Shown one piece after another: positions 49,225 through 62,050 of a DNA stretch of 64,000 nucleotides. Under the pieces are notes generated by a model. The model made no database searches. It was not told the origin of the DNA and saw nothing but the letters and a program-made list of their open reading frames with translations. This DNA comes from Embleya hyalina. GTDB lineage: Bacteria; Actinomycetota; Actinomycetes; Streptomycetales; Streptomycetaceae. The stretch lies in the NCBI RefSeq assembly GCF_003967355.1, contig NZ_BIFH01000016.1, positions 124,001-188,000 of the forward strand. Reading direction: 5' to 3'. Position 1 is the first letter of the stretch, and each line of letters begins with the position of its first letter. The translations under genes were made by a program, and so were the position numbers.

Positions 49225-50439
49225 GTGAAGGTTCGAATAACACGCGACCGCCTCGTCGAGGGCATCGCCTGGGCCGTTCGCGCCCTGCCCGCCCGGCCGG
49301 TCGTCCCCGCCCTCGCCGCGTTCCGACTCGAGGCGGACGGCGGCACCCTCACGATCTCCGCGTACAACTACGAGGTCTCGACCGGGATCGAGGTTCCGGC
49401 CGAGGTCACCCGCCCCGGGAGGATCCTCGTCCCGGGGCGACTGCTCGCCGAGATCGCCCGATCCCTGCCCCGCGAGCACCCCGTGGACCTCACCGTCGAC
49501 GCGAGAAGGGTGACCAGGTCGTCGTCGCCGTCCCCGGCGAGTCGGGCCCGACTGACCTGCGCCGGCGCCTACTTCGCACTGCCGCTGTCGGCCCCGACCG
49601 ACTATCCGGCCACCCCGCTGCTCCCGGAGACCGTCGGAGTGGTGGGCGCGTCCGCCTTCACCGAGGCCGTCGCGCAGGTGACGATCGCGGCGTCCCGGGA
49701 CGAGAGCGTGCCCGCACTCACCGCCGTCCGCCTCCACCTGACCCACGACTCGCTCGTCCTGGCCGCCACCGATCGTTATCGCCTGGCGGTCCGCCGCATG
49801 CCCTGGCAGCCCATCACCGAGGACCCCGCCCGCACCGCCCTGATCCCGGCCCGAGTCCTGGCCGAACTCGCCCGCAACCCGGACATCGGAGCGGACCTGC
49901 GCCTGGCCCTCGGCCCGGAGGCCGGCCGCCGCGGCCTGCTCGGGCTGATCTCCGCCGGACGGCAGGCCACCACACGACTGCTCGACTACGAGTTCCCGCA
50001 CTACGACCGGCTGTTCGACAACGAGACCACCGCCGTGGCGACCGTCGACACGACGGCGCTGATCGAGGCGGTTCGGCGGGTATCCCTCGTGGTCACCCGC
50101 AACGCGCCCATCCGCCTGACGTTCGAACACGACGCACTGCGGGTCGAGGCCGGCACCACCGACGAGGCCGAGGCGGGCGCGACCGTCCCGGTACACCTGA
50201 CGGGCGAACCCACCAGGTCCGCCTTCAACCCGGCCCACCTCCTGGACGGCCTGACCGCCCTCCGCACGCCAACCGCACAAATGTTGTTCAGCACGCCGAC
50301 CAAGCCGACCGTACTCACAGAGGGCCCACCGACGACAAACCCGAACACCGCCCCAAACAACCAACCTTCCCCCCAGAGCATCACAAACCAAGACACTCGG
50401 GACTACCGCTACCTACTGATGCCCATGCGCAGCGCCTGA
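49225..50439 (+). CDS. dnaN: DNA polymerase III beta sliding clamp paralog with compensated frameshifts
   Basis: 404 residues. Three clamp domains are recognisable: VKVRITRDRLVEGIAWAVRALPARPVVPAL at the start, a middle domain with AFTEAVAQVTIAASRDESVPALTAVRLHL and AATDRYRLAVR, and the C-terminal YLLMPMR. Replicative clamps encircle DNA and hold polymerases. Between 49501 and about 49560 the correct clamp sequence (GDQVVVAVPGESGPTDL) is in the +2 frame, while the gene frame reads a Ser/Arg-rich segment; two net-compensating indels explain this. A Thr/Asn/Gln-rich insert precedes the last strand. GTG start eight bases after GAAAGG. Probably a replicon-borne second dnaN. Confidence 0.85.
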   Translation: MKVRITRDRLVEGIAWAVRALPARPVVPALAAFRLEADGGTLTISAYNYEVSTGIEVPAEVTRPGRILVPGRLLAEIARSLPREHPVDLTVDARRVTRSSSPSPASRARLTCAGAYFALPLSAPTDYPATPLLPETVGVVGASAFTEAVAQVTIAASRDESVPALTAVRLHLTHDSLVLAATDRYRLAVRRMPWQPITEDPARTALIPARVLAELARNPDIGADLRLALGPEAGRRGLLGLISAGRQATTRLLDYEFPHYDRLFDNETTAVATVDTTALIEAVRRVSLVVTRNAPIRLTFEHDALRVEAGTTDEAEAGATVPVHLTGEPTRSAFNPAHLLDGLTALRTPTAQMLFSTPTKPTVLTEGPPTTNPNTAPNNQPSPQSITNQDTRDYRYLLMPMRSA

Positions 50440-50929: not shown

Positions 50930-51664
50930 TCACCAGCCCGAGCCGCGATCCGGCCCGCCGCCCAGCAGCGCGCTCAGCACCTCCTCCGTGTCGGCGAGGT
51001 CGGTGAGGACGACATCGGCGCCCGCCGCCCTCAGCGCGGCCGCGCTCGTCGAGCCGGTCGCCACCGCCACACTTCGCGCGCCCACCGCGCGGGCGGTGGC
51101 CACGTCGCGCAGGGTGTCGCCGACGATCACGGTGTCGGCGCCCGCGTGCCGCCGGCCCAGGTGCTCCTCGGTCCGCGCGAACGCCCGGGCGGGCAGGTCG
51201 ATTCGCTCGTAGGCGTCCTCGCCGTACGCACCGACGCGGAAGTCCACGTGGTCGGCCAGGCCGAAGACGTTCATCTTCAATACGGCGAGCGCGTACAGGT
51301 TGCCGGTCAGCACCGACTGCCGCACATCGCACATCGTGCCCAGCGCCGTCAGGGCCTCCAGCGCCCCCGCCAACACTCGCCCCTCCGCCGCCAACTCGGC
51401 TTCACGCTGCCGTAGTTCGACGACGATCAGGTCCAGGAAAGCAGCCAACAGGCCATCCTCGGGCGACAACCCGTGCAGCCGCAGCACCTCGCTCGCCGCG
51501 GCCATCTCGGTGCGACCGTCGAATTGCCACGGTTGTTCCAGAGTCCGCCCGGCCACCTGCCGAAACGCGGCCGCGTACGCCCGCCGCGACACCTTCCCCC
51601 CGTCGATCAGGGTGTGATCGATGTCCCACAACACCAGCCGGGGGCCGGATCCACCGGTCGCCAT
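50930..51664 (-). CDS. HAD superfamily hydrolase (phosphoglycolate phosphatase-like)
   Basis: 244 residues. Motif I LWDIDHTLID (DxDxT), motif II SVLTGN, Lys in VLKMNVFGL, motif III VIVGDTLRDVATARAVG. A helical C1 cap lies between motifs I and II. The ATG at 51664 matches the family start; the open frame continues upstream without homology. Substrate unknown. Confidence 0.9.
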   Translation of the reverse strand: MATGGSGPRLVLWDIDHTLIDGGKVSRRAYAAAFRQVAGRTLEQPWQFDGRTEMAAASEVLRLHGLSPEDGLLAAFLDLIVVELRQREAELAAEGRVLAGALEALTALGTMCDVRQSVLTGNLYALAVLKMNVFGLADHVDFRVGAYGEDAYERIDLPARAFARTEEHLGRRHAGADTVIVGDTLRDVATARAVGARSVAVATGSTSAAALRAAGADVVLTDLADTEEVLSALLGGGPDRGSGW

Positions 51665-52149
51665 CAGCACTCCGATCCTCCCGACCGCCCCGCGCGGCCG
51701 CTGCCCCGAGCATGGCATCCGCCCGCCCGACGCGGACCCGCAGACCCGACCGCACAGGAAAACACCCCGCAACGAACCGCCGAACGCAAGGAAGGAAGGC
51801 ACCCCAACCCAACCAACCGGCGTTTCGACGGCGACGGCAAACCCTCCGGCGCCGGAATCGACACGCGCCCGCTCACCGCGAAGGCGCGGAATCACAACCA
51901 CCACTCGTCCCTCTCCCACCCCCTGAGGCCGCGCGCCCTCCCGACTCCACCACCGCCCACCCCGCCCCCCGCGTCCCGCACACGGCACCACACCGCAATG
52001 CGGCACACCATCCCAACCGTCCCGTCGGTTCGGTGTACCCCACCCGATCCTTCCCCCACCCCCTCCCCCGAGCCGGCCCTCCACCCCTTCCCAATGACTG
52101 TAAAAGCTGGCTTCCCCACCTTTTAAGGTGATTTTCACTCCCGCTTCAA
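51665..52149. other. Gene-free C/A-rich stretch
   Basis: No convincing gene. The plus strand is dominated by C and A (runs such as CCCCAACCCAACC), continuing the skew seen from about 50.25 kb. A 6-bp inverted repeat CACCTT-TT-AAGGTG is at 52117-52130, where composition changes abruptly. Confidence 0.6.
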
Positions 52150-52660
52150 TCCCTGACTCAAGCCTTCGAAAGCCCCTCCGCCGAGCCCTTGCACCACCTC
52201 GTCAGGCCATTCTCGCAGCACCCTCAAATGGCCCTTGACCTGCAACTTGCATGGCAAGCTGTCCGGCAATCCGGAGCGGGATCTGTGCGTGCGGCTGTGC
52301 GGCGAGATGTCCTTTGATATGTCCGGGACATTGCAGCCCAACACGTTCGTCAATCCGCATCGCTGTACGGGCGGGTGTGCGGGCGGGTGTACGGCACGAA
52401 CGACGGACGCGCGGTGTCGTGGGCGGCCGGCCGGAGCAGTGGGCGGGGCGACGGCACGCGCGCTGGAACCGCCGATGGCTCTGGCGATGGCTCCTGCGAC
52501 GGCTCTCACGACGGGCCCCGCGGTGGGCGGCACGGCGGATCGCACGATCGGTCACACGGTCGCTCTCGCGATGGTCCGAACGGCGGAACCCACACTCGAT
52601 CGAGCACTGGATCACGCGACAGAACACACACTCGGCGCCTGGGTATTCATGCGTGACAGG
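52150..52660. repeat. Degenerate 12-nt-period array upstream of the rep-like genes
   Basis: The sequence can be cut into 12-nt units that resemble neighbours, for example GTGCGTGCGGCT, GTGCGGCGAGAT, GTCCTTTGATAT, GTCCGGGACATT, and further on GATGGCTCTGGC, GATGGCTCCTGC, GACGGCTCTCAC. All reading frames therefore give tetrapeptide-like repeats, which explains several open but unconvincing ORFs here. No gene is supported. Position just before the replication-type genes suggests iterons. Confidence 0.6.
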
Positions 52661-52844: not shown

Positions 52845-53312
52845 ATGGCCACTTCCCGGGAGCGTTGGACCGTGGCAAGGCTCGCGGCCATCGCGGGTCT
52901 GCCCAGCAAGGTGGGCTACGAGGCACGGGACCGAAACGTGCTGCACCCGACGGTGCTCTCGCCCAGCGATGTATTGCCCCTGCTCACCTTCGAGGCCCTG
53001 CGAAGGATCAGCTGGCCGGGTGAGAACTATGCGCGCAACACACCGCAACGCCTGCGCCTCTGGGAGCACCTGGCCATCGAACACTCACGCGTCGGCGACC
53101 TTGCCGACGTCGACCCGATGACCGGCCTCTACGTCCACCCGTCGGGTGCCGACCTGGCCGTTCGACCGAGTGAACACGCCGCACTCGCACTGCGGTTCGT
53201 CGAGGAGAACACGCCGTACCAGTACCTCACCCTCGGCGCGTGGGCCCAGCAGGCCCTGCGCGCCCTGGCTGCCGAACAGGAACAGGTCGGACGACGGCAT
53301 GGTGCGGCCTGA
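52845..53312 (+). CDS. Small putative DNA-binding protein
   Basis: 155 residues. The N-terminus WTVARLAAIAGLPSKVGYEARDRNVLHPTVLSPSDVLPLLTFEALR looks like a MerR-type winged HTH in which a Pro-rich wing leads to a second helix; the rest is helical with no known domain. AAAGGA is six bases before the ATG. It is followed by two hairpins and then the large rep-like gene. It could be a copy-control or partition accessory regulator; this is inferred from position. Confidence 0.6.
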   Translation: MATSRERWTVARLAAIAGLPSKVGYEARDRNVLHPTVLSPSDVLPLLTFEALRRISWPGENYARNTPQRLRLWEHLAIEHSRVGDLADVDPMTGLYVHPSGADLAVRPSEHAALALRFVEENTPYQYLTLGAWAQQALRALAAEQEQVGRRHGAA

Positions 53313-53411: not shown

Positions 53412-53628
53412 CGTCGGAGAAAGGAGGCCTGCCGGCCGCTTACACAACCGAACAGTGAGACCCAGCCGTTCCGGTACTTCCACGCGCCGAACGGTCGGGT
53501 CGCCCATACCTCTTTCTCTTCACCAGCTTCAGGAGCAGATCATACCTGCGATCCCCGAGGCAGGCCCAGTGCTGTCTTCAGCCAGGTCCTTGCCCTCTTC
53601 AAGTGTGCCCGAATCCTCTGGATTCACG

Positions 53629-55614
53629 ATGCAGTCCCGGGTGCGTGCCGCCTTGCGCGCGGCCCGAGTTCGGGTCAGCGGCGCCCGCGGCGTCGATCCG
53701 ACCATGCCGGACTCGGTCCGCCGTGCCTCGGTCAAGGTCCCGCTGCGTGTGGTGACCGGCGAGGCGTACAACGACCTGGCCTTCGTGTTCGCCGCCAAGG
53801 TCGGCCACCTGGCCGCCGGCCCGAACCAGCCCGGCTGCATCGCCGACCTGACCACGATCGCCCGCTACCTGGGCCTGACCGTGCGCTCGGTGACCCAGGC
53901 GGACGGCCGTGTCGCGCTCAAGGCCCCGTCGTCCCTGTACGCCGCGCAGAAGCAGCTCACCGCCGGCGAGGAACTGACCGTGGTCCGCCGCACGAAGCCC
54001 TCCGGCACCGGGACGTCCGCCGTACGCCGCCTGCGCGCCCCGGAAAAGGGCGAGCCGTGGGTGATGGTGCCCGTCGCGCTCCTGGGCGCGGTCCCGCACC
54101 GGCACGCCCGGGCGTACGCCGTCATCAGCTACGCCCGCGCCCGCGGCCACCACCTGACCTACGCCGAACTCGCCGACGTGCTGCGCCACCAGTCGGGCCG
54201 CCGGATCGGCGAACCGGTGAGCGTACGCGCCGCCCGCGGCGTGGTGTCCGACCTGGAGCGATGGGGCTGGGTCGAGGTGGGCCGTCGGGAGGGGTGGCAG
54301 GGGCGCAACATGATGGTCCCGCTCCGACCCTTCGAACCCGGAAGCGACGACGAGTCGATCGCCGAGGCCGGTGTGGCCGATGTGGCGACCGAGGCCGACG
54401 AGACCGTGGACATCTTCGCCGGACACATGTTCGGGGAAGCGGAGGATTCGCCGGCGGACGAGGGCATGGCCGAGACCGACTCGACGGGGGCTGCCGGGGC
54501 TGCCGGGACGGCGGGGGAGACCTCGGCGAACTCGCGGACCGAGCGTCCGGTCGTTCTCGGGGCGGCCTTTCACGTGGGCGCCGGAGCGGTGGCCTTTCCG
54601 ATGCTCCGATCAACCGTCAACAAGGTTGTCGAAACGCCCGTCGAAGCATCCGTCGTAACACCCGCCGGGACACCGACCGAAGCCGCCTCTCGAACCGTCG
54701 TCCGAACCTCGTCCGAGCCGCCGGAGAACGGCGTTTCGGCGGCTCGGAACCCAGGTGCGGAGGGTCAATGGACGTCGGGTTCGCAGGGGGTTCGGACCTC
54801 CGTCACGGATAAGGAAGACACTCCGACTGACCTACGAATGAACGTGGCTTCCCGAGGGGGTTCCGCCCGAAGGGCGCTCTCGGTGGTAGACGTGCCCGAG
54901 CCCGCGAACAGCGCCCGAATCGGCTTCGCGACGTCCCCGGCGAACGAGGCGCCTGCGGCGGAACCCCGTCGATTGCGACACGTGACGGTCCGGAACCACC
55001 GAACCACCATCTCCCCGATCGCGGCGAGGGCGTTCGCCGGAATCGGGTCGCTGGTGGACCGGATGAGCACCGGTCAGCGGGTCGTGGCGGCGGCGCTGGT
55101 GGACCGCGCCGTGGCCGAAGTCGGCGACGCGGACCGGGTCTTCGCCCGGCTGGCGGACCGGTGGCGGACCCAGGAAGGGCCCGTACGCAGCCCCGTGGGC
55201 TGGCTGGGCGGCCGTGGGCTGGCCCGGCGTGGGTGCGCCGACCCGAACTGCGAGGACGGCCGTCTGTGGCTGCCCACGGCCGGTCCGGGGGCGGGCCTGG
55301 CGGGCGACCCGTTCGCCTGCCACAACTGCGCCCGGCAGGACCAGGATCGCCGCGCCGCGGCGGACGAGCGGTTCGGCGCGGACCGACGGGCGGCGAACCG
55401 GGCCCGGTCGGGGCGGGAGCCGATCGTGGGCACGGGGTCGGCGGTCGGGGCGGCGGTCCGCCCGGTGGCCGCGCCGGCGCCGATCGGGACCTGCGACGAC
55501 TGCGACCGGGCGGTCCGGGGCCTGCGGGCCGACGGGGTGTGCGCGGACTGTCGCGAGGATCGCGAGGCCGCCGCCGCCGAGGGGGCCTCCGGAGCGCTCC
55601 AGGGGGCGTTCTGA
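53629..55614 (+). CDS. Putative replication initiator: two HTH-like regions and C-terminal zinc ribbons
   Basis: About 661 residues; the start is uncertain (ATG 53629 used; ATG 53704 or GTG 53455 possible, the latter with poor coding bias). Two HTH-like regions are visible: one around IADLTTIARYLGLTVRSVTQ, the other RARGHHLTYAELADVLRHQ...ARGVVSDLERWGWVEVGRREG. A ~270-residue acidic/Thr-rich linker follows, then CADPNCEDGRLW...CHNC and CDDCDRAVRGLRADGVCADC zinc-ribbon motifs. Tandem winged helices are typical of theta-type plasmid initiators; the assignment to replication is inferred from this and from the neighbouring parAB-like operon. Confidence 0.6.
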   Translation: MQSRVRAALRAARVRVSGARGVDPTMPDSVRRASVKVPLRVVTGEAYNDLAFVFAAKVGHLAAGPNQPGCIADLTTIARYLGLTVRSVTQADGRVALKAPSSLYAAQKQLTAGEELTVVRRTKPSGTGTSAVRRLRAPEKGEPWVMVPVALLGAVPHRHARAYAVISYARARGHHLTYAELADVLRHQSGRRIGEPVSVRAARGVVSDLERWGWVEVGRREGWQGRNMMVPLRPFEPGSDDESIAEAGVADVATEADETVDIFAGHMFGEAEDSPADEGMAETDSTGAAGAAGTAGETSANSRTERPVVLGAAFHVGAGAVAFPMLRSTVNKVVETPVEASVVTPAGTPTEAASRTVVRTSSEPPENGVSAARNPGAEGQWTSGSQGVRTSVTDKEDTPTDLRMNVASRGGSARRALSVVDVPEPANSARIGFATSPANEAPAAEPRRLRHVTVRNHRTTISPIAARAFAGIGSLVDRMSTGQRVVAAALVDRAVAEVGDADRVFARLADRWRTQEGPVRSPVGWLGGRGLARRGCADPNCEDGRLWLPTAGPGAGLAGDPFACHNCARQDQDRRAAADERFGADRRAANRARSGREPIVGTGSAVGAAVRPVAAPAPIGTCDDCDRAVRGLRADGVCADCREDREAAAAEGASGALQGAF

Positions 55615-55927: not shown

Positions 55928-57298
55928 TTACTGCTGGGGCGAGAAGATCTCGGGGCGGCCGAGGGCGCCCTCGGCGTCGAGGCGTTCGAGGAACAGTTCG
56001 ACGGCGGCCGAGAACAGGTACACGACCAGACCGCGCTTCTCCGTCGCGGTGAGCTCGGTGTCGAGATCGCGGGCGAGTTCGTACACGGCCGGGCTGACCC
56101 GGTAGCTGGAGGACTGGCTGGGGTCGGTGATCCCGCCCCTGGCACGCAGGAACGAGCGGATCATCTCGATCTGCTCGTCGTTGTCCTCGGGGAGTTCCAG
56201 CAACGCGGCGTTGAGGTAGTGCCCCAGCGCCAGGCGCCGATTCTGCGACGAACGTTTGTCGGCGGTGAGCCGCTTGCCCAGACGCGCCTTCACGTCGGGC
56301 AGGAGCCGGAATCCCCAGGTTTCCCAGCCCTTGGAGTTTATCCGCGCGTCGAGAAAGCTCTCCAGGAGCGCGGCGTGTGCCGACTGCTCGTCGGCGGAGC
56401 CGGTGGCGACCGGAGCCGGCGCGGCGGGCGCGGGAGCGTTGCGCCGGGACGCACGCGGAGCCGAGGCGGCCTTCGCGGGCGCGGACGTCTTCGCCGGCTG
56501 GGCGGCCGGCGCGGACCGGGTCGGTGCGGCCGCTCGGGGGGCGGGCTCGGCGGCGCGGTCCGGCGTCCGCTCCGCCCGCGCGGCCGGAGCCGGGGTCGAG
56601 ACCGGCTCCGGCCGCGGCGTCGGAGCCTGGGCCTCCTCGCGGGACACCTCGAACCGCGCCAACCGGGCGAGCACGGGTTCCTCGTCGGGTTCGACTTCCC
56701 GCCGAGGCCTGGGAGGCGACGCTTCGGCAGGTACGGACGCGACCGAACCCGAGCCTGCGGCCGTGGACGCCGCCGCGCGCGCGAATTCCGGCTCCGGAGT
56801 CGACGCCTGCACCGATTCCGAAGCCGCCACCGGCTTCGTGTCCGACACGTGCTCCGTGACCTGAACCGGCTCCGCGCGCGCCGGGACGGGCTCGACGATG
56901 GGCGAGGCCGCGGCGTGTACCGCTTCGGGCTCGGACGCGGGTTCGGGTTCGGGCGCCGTGTCGGCGGCCACACCCGAAGTCGCGTCAGGGGCCGCTTCCT
57001 CCGGCTCGGGCTTCGGTTCGGGCTCCGGCTCGGGCTTCGGTTCGGGCTCGGCCGCCGGTGCCGGTACGGCGGCCGCGGCGGTCTTGAACGGCGGCCCCGA
57101 GGACGTGGCCCCGGAACCGCCGCCGCTGCCGCTGCCGCCGCCCATCTGGGCCAGCAGCGCGGCCGTCGAGTCGGTGCCCGAGTTCAGGAAGCTGCCGTTC
57201 ATGGCGTCCTGCAGCGCCGCCGCCAGGACGGACGACTGAACGGCGGGTGCCTTCCTCGCTTTTGCCTTGGACTTGGGCACGGGCTTCTCGTCGGTCAT
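55928..57298 (-). CDS. ParA partner: centromere-binding-like protein with duplicated RHH-type module
   Basis: 456 residues. A basic N-terminus (KSKAKARK) is followed by about 280 residues rich in Pro, Ala, Glu and Ser (PEPKPEPEPEPKPEPE). The folded C-terminus shows two similar modules, 327-370 (GFRLLPDVKARLGKRL...YLNAALLEL) and 397-441 (SYRVSPAVYELARDLD...YLFSAAVELFL), each like a strand-helix-helix ribbon-helix-helix. It has no ParB/Spo0J HTH. The start codon overlaps the parA stop (TGATG). Such pairs (ParA with an RHH adaptor) segregate plasmids by binding tandem repeats; the 15-bp array upstream fits. RHH assignment is inference. Confidence 0.72.
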   Translation of the reverse strand: MTDEKPVPKSKAKARKAPAVQSSVLAAALQDAMNGSFLNSGTDSTAALLAQMGGGSGSGGGSGATSSGPPFKTAAAAVPAPAAEPEPKPEPEPEPKPEPEEAAPDATSGVAADTAPEPEPASEPEAVHAAASPIVEPVPARAEPVQVTEHVSDTKPVAASESVQASTPEPEFARAAASTAAGSGSVASVPAEASPPRPRREVEPDEEPVLARLARFEVSREEAQAPTPRPEPVSTPAPAARAERTPDRAAEPAPRAAAPTRSAPAAQPAKTSAPAKAASAPRASRRNAPAPAAPAPVATGSADEQSAHAALLESFLDARINSKGWETWGFRLLPDVKARLGKRLTADKRSSQNRRLALGHYLNAALLELPEDNDEQIEMIRSFLRARGGITDPSQSSSYRVSPAVYELARDLDTELTATEKRGLVVYLFSAAVELFLERLDAEGALGRPEIFSPQQ

Positions 57299-58125
57299 CA
57301 GACGGCCTGCTTCACACGGTCGAACAGTTCGATGGCCAGCTCGGTGTAGGCAACGCTCGCGGCGATGTTCGGTTGCTCTATGCAGACGGGGCGCCCGATC
57401 TCGTACGCCTGCGAGATCCGGCTGTCCCGGCGGATCTGCGTCTGGAAGGGGTCGAGGCCGTAGTCGGCCAGCCGCTGCTCGACCTGGTCGTCCTCGCTGG
57501 TGCGCCGGGACGGGGCGTTGGCCTTGTTGATCACGGTGCCGAGGAAGCGCGGCTCACACTCGCCGAGGGTGCGCTCGGAGGTGGCGGCGGTCAGCCCCTT
57601 GATCACGGCGGCGCCCTGGACGGTCGCGTACAGCGGCTCGCAGACCGCGACCACGAAGTCGGCGGCGGCGAGGGCGACGGCGGACAGGGCGCTCACGCTG
57701 GGCGGCGTGTCGATCAGGATGATCGTCGGAGTCCGGCGAATCGGCTCGAGGATGCGGCGGAGGATCCCGGTGGTGGAGAAGTCCATCCCGGCGATCTTGC
57801 GCTCGGCGTCGACCATCGTGCTCTGCACGGAGCCGAAGAGGCTGAGGCTGCCGGTGGTCTCGAACGACTTGAGCAGTTCGCTGCGGTCGAAGATCATCTC
57901 CGGCACGTCGGGCGTCATGCCGTTGAGCTGGGCGTAGAGCGCGAAGCCGACCGAGCGCTGAGGCTGTGGCACCACACCGAGGGCGACGCCGGCCTGCGCC
58001 TGCGGCTCGAGGTCGACCACGAGGGCGTGAAAGCCGTTGATGGCCAGAGCACTCGCGAGGTTCACCGTCGTCGTCGTCTTCCCGGGACCCCCCTTCTGGC
58101 TGGCCACCGCCACAACTGCACCCAT
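57298..58125 (-). CDS. parA: ParA-family Walker ATPase
   Basis: 275 residues. Deviant Walker A at the very N-terminus (ASQKGGPGKTTTTVNLASALA), Walker A' VVDLEPQAQ, Walker B IILIDTPPS. It lacks an N-terminal HTH, so it is the short (type Ib-like) class, which usually relies on the partner protein for repression. The ATG at 58125 has GAGAGGA seven bases upstream; the frame stays open to 58308 without homology. It forms a coupled operon with the RHH-like partner. Confidence 0.93.
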   Translation of the reverse strand: MGAVVAVASQKGGPGKTTTTVNLASALAINGFHALVVDLEPQAQAGVALGVVPQPQRSVGFALYAQLNGMTPDVPEMIFDRSELLKSFETTGSLSLFGSVQSTMVDAERKIAGMDFSTTGILRRILEPIRRTPTIILIDTPPSVSALSAVALAAADFVVAVCEPLYATVQGAAVIKGLTAATSERTLGECEPRFLGTVINKANAPSRRTSEDDQVEQRLADYGLDPFQTQIRRDSRISQAYEIGRPVCIEQPNIAASVAYTELAIELFDRVKQAV

Positions 58126-58186
58126 CGCGCGTCCTCTCGGAGTAGAGCGGCCGAACGCCTGCGTGAGCCGGGGTTCCGCCCGGTGG

Positions 58187-58217
58187 CCTGTCAGAGCCGT
58201 CCACTGAACCTGACAGG
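58187..58217. promoter_or_regulatory. Inverted repeat CCTGTCAG-N15-CTGACAGG upstream of parA
   Basis: Perfect 8-bp arms at 58187-58194 and 58210-58217. A third CTGTCAG lies at 58341-58347. Probable operator for autoregulation of the par operon. Confidence 0.6.
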
Positions 58218-58527
58218 GAAGACGACGTACCTCCGGGATAGCTGCTCGATACTTCCGCCGGAAGCCCGAAAGCGCAACGAACCAGGATCTAGCGGGCAGA
58301 ACCTCCAAGGTGTCCTTGAGGGGTCCGACCTAAGTTTTGTCTGTCAGGTTAGCAGCGGAATCCCAAAATTCACTGTGACACTCGGAAAACCCACCCGTAT
58401 GTCCCGGTTAACCCGTTTGGTCGGCCCGATCTTCGCCCCCAACAGACTCTTTTGGCGCACCAATTCCCCCCAACCTCTCGTTCTCCGAACCACCTGTACG
58501 ACATATCGAGACACCCATCCCCGCCTC

Positions 58528-59849: not shown

Positions 59850-60960
59850 GCTGAGAGGCCGTCCCGGCCGCAGATCCACCCGCCGTGGCGTTGCGTGCTT
59901 CGACCGTACGCCGATTCGTTGTCGGATCCGCGCGCCCGTGCGTTCGTCCACGGAGCCTTCGTGCGTGCCGTGGCCTGAGCGTTCCGCAGCTCTGTCCGCC
60001 CGGTGAGCCGCAGCCGGATTGTGTGTGGGAGTGTCGGAGCGCACCACAGGCAGACCGGCCCGAAGGCAGGCCCGTCCGGAGATTCGGCCGCCCACCGCGC
60101 GGTTCGTGGATAGACCGATCGGCCCACCCGCCGATACAGCCGATCGGCCATCCACCCGCCGCTGCACCGAAACGCCCGTTGCTCCGACCGCCCGCCCGTC
60201 GCTGCGCACGCAGAACGATCCGCCCGCAGGACGGCCCGTCCGCAGGACCGCCCGTCCGTCCGGCCGTCGAGCCATCGCTCCGACCGACCGAACGCCTGCC
60301 CATCGTTCCGCACACAGGAACATCTGCACACAGCAATACCCAGCGCTCCGCACGCCGACCGGCCCGCCGTTCGTTCGCTCCGGCCGTCCGTCCGCCCACC
60401 CGTACATCCGACCATCCAGCCGTACGCCCGTAGTTCGAGCCGTCCGCAGATCCATCCGCCCATAGTTCCGGCCGTAGACCCGCCCACAGGTCCACCCGTC
60501 CACCGATCGATCCGCCCACAGAAACGTCCGTCCGCACGCCCATCGATGGATCCGCCCATCCATTCATTCATCGCTCCACCCACCCGTACACATATCCGTG
60601 CACCCAGCGATAGACCCATCCGCACGCCCGTCGTTCGCTCTACACAGTCATCGTTTCGTCCGCCCACTCATAGATCCGCCCACCCATCTCAGCACCCATC
60701 CATCCATCCGAACACAGCAATACCCATACCAACACCCGTCCCTACATCCATCGAGCCATCCATCCGTACGGCCATACGCCCGGTGATAGACCCGCACATT
60801 CACCGACCCACACGACCAAACACGGACTCAGAGAGCCGTCCGCAGACAGATCTACCCATCCGTCGATCCGACCGTTGACCCGACCACACAGAGGTACGCC
60901 CACCCATACGCCCAAACACCCGCCGCTACAGACACCCGCACACCCGCCCACACAGCCGCC
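59850..60960. repeat. Long degenerate tetranucleotide-like (CCRT/CCAC) repeat region
   Basis: About 1.1 kb dominated on the plus strand by CCATCC, CCGTCC, CCGCCC and CCCAC words with a loose 4-nt and 12-nt periodicity. Because 4 is not a multiple of 3, all frames read similar Pro/His/Arg or Asp/Gly/Arg repeats, and several long frames stay open. No coding gene is supported. Confidence 0.7.
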
Positions 60961-60966
60961 GTTTTA

Positions 60967-61152
60967 GTGTTGCAGGTCGTCGAACTTATCTCGTTGCAGT
61001 CTCTCGAACATACTGTGTTGCATGACGTCGAACTTGCCACCATGCAGTCGGAGCAACATGTCCTTGCACATCTTGACGTATATCTGCCCGTGCTACTTGG
61101 CGCGCAGCTGTCAGTGCACCTTGCCGAACATCTTGCGTTGCATGAGTTGTGA
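60967..61152. repeat. 24-bp degenerate tandem array
   Basis: Units of 24 bp of the type TTGCAKNTCNTCGAACWTNNC start at 60967, 60991, 61015, 61039 and onwards for almost eight units; each half is also a 12-nt subunit. GC content is distinctly lower than in the surrounding DNA. The 61-residue Leu/His-rich frame across it is a by-product of the repeat. Confidence 0.7.
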
Positions 61153-61170
61153 ACTTGTGAACTATGCAGG

Positions 61171-62050
61171 TCAGAGGCCATGACCTCGCGGATGAGGAAG
61201 GTTTGTTGCTCTGCAAAAACACCAGTTGGCCAGCCGACTCAAACCCAGCGAAGTCCGTTGCCCTGGTGACTGCTGGAGCGTTGATTCAGCAAAGGCGATG
61301 CTGGCGATATTTAGGTCAGGGCGAAGGTTCCCATCGGTTGGCTCGGCTCGCCGGTGGGCGCACCCTTGATCATCGCCGCCTTGCGGACTACGGGGTATAC
61401 CTTGAGAAGTGCCATAACTTCCTCCCAGGTTCCTGCGGTCCGGGCGGGGCATGACGACGGCACCGACGACGAGACTCCCTTGGGCGAAGAGGGAGACGCG
61501 GGAGAGTAGTTGGCTTTCCGAGGCCTGCTTCCTGGTGCTTGGGTGAGGTGGGCTTCGGTTTGGCACGGGCTCCGGTCATGTTTAGCGGCGCCGAGCGTCA
61601 AGTCGTGCGAGGCGGTGCCGGTTAATCGATTGCCGGTTGGTGCCGTTCAAACTTTGAGCCGGGTTGCCGAAGAGGTGGGCTCTGGATGCCGCAGGTGGGT
61701 GTAGCGGAGCCCGCTTGTGTGTGTTGTGTGCGACGAGTTGCTCTTGGTCGGTTGCGTGCCTAGGCGGTGATGTTCCGAGCGCGATCCGTCCGCAAGGGTT
61801 CGGGATCCCTCTGATGGTCGGTGATCTTGGCATCGCAGGTTTCGTGTGGCCGGGCCATCCGCGGCCGTTGCACTGGTTCCGGATAGCGCCACTCCCGCTC
61901 CGGGCTCCGCTCCCCCGCCGGAAATTTGTTCGCGTGATCGTTCTTTGATCGGTTCAAATGAGCGGCTGTCGGGCCTGAGTGAGCCGGTGTGGCTTCTGGA
62001 GGGGCCTCATCGGGATCGGGGAAATGCTCGGGAAAGGTGACCGCAGTTGG
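61171..62050. other. Intergenic remnant zone
   Basis: About 0.9 kb with lower GC and several short frames (for example 61311-61601 on the minus strand, which ends AGTWEEVMALLKVYPVVRK). None has a recognised domain or a good ribosome site. I call no gene here. Confidence 0.5.

Follow-up and report, generated by a model that had tools for sequence, protein, structure and literature searches.

The second dnaN gene of Embleya hyalina, dnaN2, lies in the window analysed here (the whole stretch of 64,000 nucleotides from contig NZ_BIFH01000016.1) and very probably encodes an intact β sliding clamp of the secondary chromosome EEC1, most likely working like any DnaN, with 12 codons gained in frame in a common ancestor with E. 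scabrispora NF3. A first-pass annotation of the same DNA had recognised a second, replicon-associated clamp, which is borne out by the match to TIGR00663, the Pfam domains and the synteny with EEC1, and had read two compensating frameshifts into it. The frameshift finding dissolves, and what remains is a documented case of a replication clamp that tolerates a lengthened loop. Coordinates of the gene and of the neighbouring features are given in Table 1.

Table 1. Features at and around dnaN2 (positions within the window; a dot marks a feature without assigned strand)
Position	Strand	Feature	Basis or remark
49225..50439	+	dnaN2, second DnaN-type sliding clamp, 404 aa	Begins with GTG, preceded by GGAAAGG
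49501..49536	+	36-bp in-frame insertion, residues 93-104, ARRVTRSSSPSP, domain-1 β-hairpin	Alignments, profile scores, pLDDT
50335..50397	+	Second species-variable loop, domain 3, directly before the conserved C-terminus YRYLLMPMR	Alignments; pLDDT <50 at residues 374-390
50930..52138	-	HAD-family hydrolase adjoining dnaN2, true start probably internal	Neighbour in other Embleya too
52435..52614	.	Array with 12-nt periodicity ahead of the 155-aa gene (best window of 180 nt)	Lag-12/24 autocorrelation, 0/1000 shuffles (best window picked before shuffling; shuffles preserve base composition only)
52845..53312	+	155-aa protein, function not assigned	Homologue adjoins parA on Streptomyces linear plasmids
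53455..55614	+	Protein with plasmid-type N-terminal domain and Cys-rich C-terminus	Winged-helix character from sequence reading only
55928..57298	-	Gene immediately following parA, putative ParB-like partner	Middle part looks disordered; C-terminal domain conserved
57298..58308	-	parA, true start probably near 58125	97-99% identical across Embleya
60050..60956	.	Tract of ~0.9 kb with 4-nt periodicity, non-coding, upstream of parA	
60957..61175	+	AT-rich 12/24-nt-periodic array, CGCCGTTTTAGTGTTGCA (60957) to GAGTTGTGAACTTGTGAA (61144)	Candidate EEC1 centromere/origin element

DnaN2 matches DnaN over its whole length, with no stop codon across the 404 residues and a TIGR00663 score of 211.7 bits, above the equivalog cutoff of 137.65. 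AlphaFold2 (17 sequences) returned the full clamp fold (pLDDT 87.5, pTM 0.85), and the best Foldseek matches of this model were mycobacterial clamps (E 2e-43; nearest 8djq, 8dj6 and 5ah2). With these and other bacterial DnaN proteins (TIGR00663) it shares all three Pfam clamp domains, the predicted fold and the partner-binding segments AATDRYRLAV (which includes TDRYRL) and C-terminal MPMR, read from alignments, the binding itself being predicted. It differs from them in the 12-residue hairpin insertion of domain 1, a variable loop in domain 3, an identity of ~45% and a faster evolution. Stretches of at least three residues with pLDDT below 50 were confined to the insert (95–102) and the domain-3 loop (374–390). 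The insert sits between strands 87–91 and 107–112 of the model, which depicts it as a floppy, disordered surface loop. As a ring dimer on DNA, DnaN2 would tether polymerase and repair proteins through its conserved pocket; the 12 codons would have entered the hairpin turn of domain 1 in the ancestor shared by the window species and E. scabrispora NF3 and would only lengthen a flexible surface loop. The genome encodes a third protein related to DnaN, whose sequence reads as a MerR-type regulator joined to a weak clamp-like domain.

The insertion, whose borders depend on the alignment and may shift by a few codons, is absent from four other Embleya DnaN2 proteins (E. scabrispora DSM 41855, NBC_00888, NBC_00896 and the fragmented assembly G003), and ordinary and housekeeping clamps have no counterpart of the residues that it encodes. 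The identical 12 residues are found in a sister species fitting E. scabrispora NF3 (93% protein identity). Between positions 49501 and 49560, the window and the sister differ at five bases, four of them third-position changes and one a silent first-position change. In the gene frame none of the five alters a residue; read in the alternative frame, each affected codon specifies a different residue. An insertion shared with another species, identical in protein and differing only silently in DNA, agrees with an earlier suggestion that an altered domain-1 loop is tolerated. A short-match search within the window gave no convincing match for the source of the inserted DNA.

The first-pass annotation had seen conserved clamp text in another frame from 49501 to about 49560, and proposed losses of one base near 49501 and of five bases near 49557, by which some 19 residues in domain 1 were replaced. 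Such losses would imply an ancestral loop that was longer, and we regard this reading as highly improbable. The alternative frame of the zone, EKGDQVVVAVPGESGPTDL, is open and contains VVVAV, which resembles a clamp strand. When scored against a clamp profile built without the two insertion carriers, the frameshift hybrid reached 494.4 bits, slightly above the 489–490 bits of shuffled zones, and this explains the earlier clamp-like impression. However, the gene as read scored higher (498.2 bits) and the gene with the 12 residues removed higher still (513.7 bits), the 3' end of the zone (RARLTC), read in the gene frame, agrees with the sister genes, and only in that frame are the substitutions between carriers silent. 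The insert-less relatives are shorter here by 12 residues, in frame, and not longer, so no base losses are needed. As judged from the aligned sequences, the orthologues settle the frame question, and dnaN2 carries no compensating frameshifts. A sequencing or assembly error in an ordinary clamp, which had also been raised and to which a draft of 78 contigs lends some colour, has a negligible probability. The separate genome of the other species carries the same 36 bp with silent differences, and we consider such an error excluded for practical purposes.

DnaN2 is under purifying selection, yet it evolves faster than the housekeeping DnaN, which is encoded on a different contig of the same genome: in comparisons between species, DnaN2 has a dN/dS of 0.22–0.38, the housekeeping clamp one of no more than 0.10. 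The gene was present in every Embleya examined, and its six products group together in the tree with support 1.0, outside the clade of the housekeeping clamps (0.998). The earlier idea of a gene perhaps drifting is contradicted by these ratios, the intact frame and the conservation of the insertion at the protein level. It is rather unlikely that DnaN2 is left over from a plasmid, lacks a specific role and evolves under relaxed selection. The higher dN/dS, the variable loops and the presence of dnaN genes on many Streptomyces linear plasmids are consistent with a relic, but none of the six genomes has a disrupted copy, dN/dS is well below 1, and the pocket segments and MPMR are kept. The linear-plasmid clamps of the pFRL1 type are also encoded on linear replicons, whereas in the tree they form a clade of their own, on a long branch and apart from DnaN2, branches being long here in general.

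Alternatively, DnaN2 could be a drug-resistant clamp of the GriR or MypR kind, guarding against a clamp-binding antibiotic. Precedent comes from the griselimycin and mycoplanecin gene clusters, whose second dnaN genes are described as self-resistance genes (PMC10817943). Unlike a cluster-linked resistance gene, however, dnaN2 is kept in all Embleya examined and, where the flanks suffice, at the same syntenic place near parA, and no nonribosomal peptide synthetase domain was detected in the 20 large window ORFs scanned, which leaves resistance an improbable role. As an ordinary clamp, DnaN2 would be expressed, dimerise, be loaded and serve EEC1 replication or repair. Considering its faster evolution than housekeeping DnaN, this role may be dispensable or specialised.

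EEC1 is a secondary chromosome of Embleya, for which the main text of PMC13152386 reports a size of 4.2 Mb, a dnaN (ACMXN5_39850) and a distant parA, with no dnaA and no parB found, and a replication mechanism described as unidentified. The window is syntenic with the complete replicons of NBC_00888 and NBC_00896, including a conserved parA nearby. In both, dnaN2 is located mid-replicon: its position is 2.875 Mb in the 5.73-Mb linear replicon of NBC_00888 and 1.446 Mb in the 3.13-Mb replicon of NBC_00896. The assignment of the window contig to EEC1 rests on this synteny, the assembly being in 78 contigs, and on that basis the window clamp is the EEC1 dnaN, a gene already known. Its surroundings resemble those in the main text of PMC13152386, where a second dnaN likewise has a conserved parA and a conserved hypothetical gene close by, and where neither dnaA nor chromosomal parS was found nearby. 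We detected no DnaA boxes near dnaN2 and no chromosomal-type parS in the window or its relatives. The insertion, the parB-like gene and the repeat arrays of the window are absent from that main text, the likeness to E. australiensis being drawn from its description only. A compact conserved locus makes the replication and segregation of the largest reported secondary chromosome directly testable.

Family searches identified a ParA ATPase close to dnaN2. The product of the gene that follows parA retrieved no Pfam partition family and no PHROG match, and its C-terminal domain is common to hypothetical proteins on Streptomyces plasmids. It is likely a ParB-like partner missed by family searches, a role suggested by its operon position. 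The 155-aa protein is 100% identical in four genomes and 98% identical in NBC_00896; its single-sequence fold prediction was unusable (pLDDT 36). Its gene occurs in two copies in the fragmented Embleya assembly G003 (7% contamination), perhaps from two replicons or a mixed assembly. The N-terminal domain of the 53455–55614 product is encoded by 68 Streptomyces plasmids. A plasmid of S. goshikiensis has a homologue of this gene with a DciA-family gene (helicase loading) behind it. A role as initiator, considered because of this neighbour, was not upheld, as three other plasmids checked have no DciA neighbour. No relatives of two neighbouring proteins were found in viral contigs.

Homologues of parA, of the ParB-like C-terminal domain and of the 155-aa gene lie together in the same order on the linear plasmid of S. 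avidinii NBC_01157 and on pSCAT, and the 12-nt-periodic arrays of both plasmids fit into that order too. The window differs from these plasmids in that the 53455–55614 gene splits the 155-aa gene from the ParB-like gene, and in that these two genes are on different strands. In addition, the window locus belongs to a multi-megabase replicon and has dnaN2 ~7 kb from parA.

Five Embleya (including NBC_00888 and NBC_00896), pSCAT and the S. avidinii plasmid have a 12-nt-periodic array ahead of the 155-aa gene. The periodicity of the main array (60957–61175) was reached in 0/5000 mononucleotide shuffles, which preserve base composition only. In each of six Embleya genomes or replicons, either end motif of this array has exactly one copy, and the spacing between the two is 175 or 187 nt, so that it varies by one 12-nt unit. 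In all six, the array adjoins a 4-nt-periodic tract and lies upstream of parA. Sought on other plasmids as a DNA match, the main array was retrieved only from Embleya, save for one weak, chance-level match; despite this, similar periodicity adjoins parA on Streptomyces plasmids, and TGTGAACTTGTGAA, an end motif of the main array, is also present on the S. avidinii plasmid, adjoining its own array.

The 12-nt arrays are candidate substitutes for parS, and from its gene and repeat content the locus looks like a plasmid-type partition centre, possibly also the replication centre, of EEC1. We tentatively propose, with more doubt than confidence, that DnaN2 is a dedicated part of EEC1 maintenance, at the centre of which a plasmid-derived cassette of parA, a new ParB-like partner and the near-invariant 155-aa protein would act on two degenerate 12-nt arrays by a 4-nt-periodic tract. 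If true, EEC1 would derive from a plasmid and would possess a centromere or origin of a type not yet described. Sampled GC skew showed no sign change at the array in NBC_00896 and a weak one in NBC_00888 (P 0.047), where the main array lies at 2,864,352 of 5,731,424, or 49.98% of the replicon.
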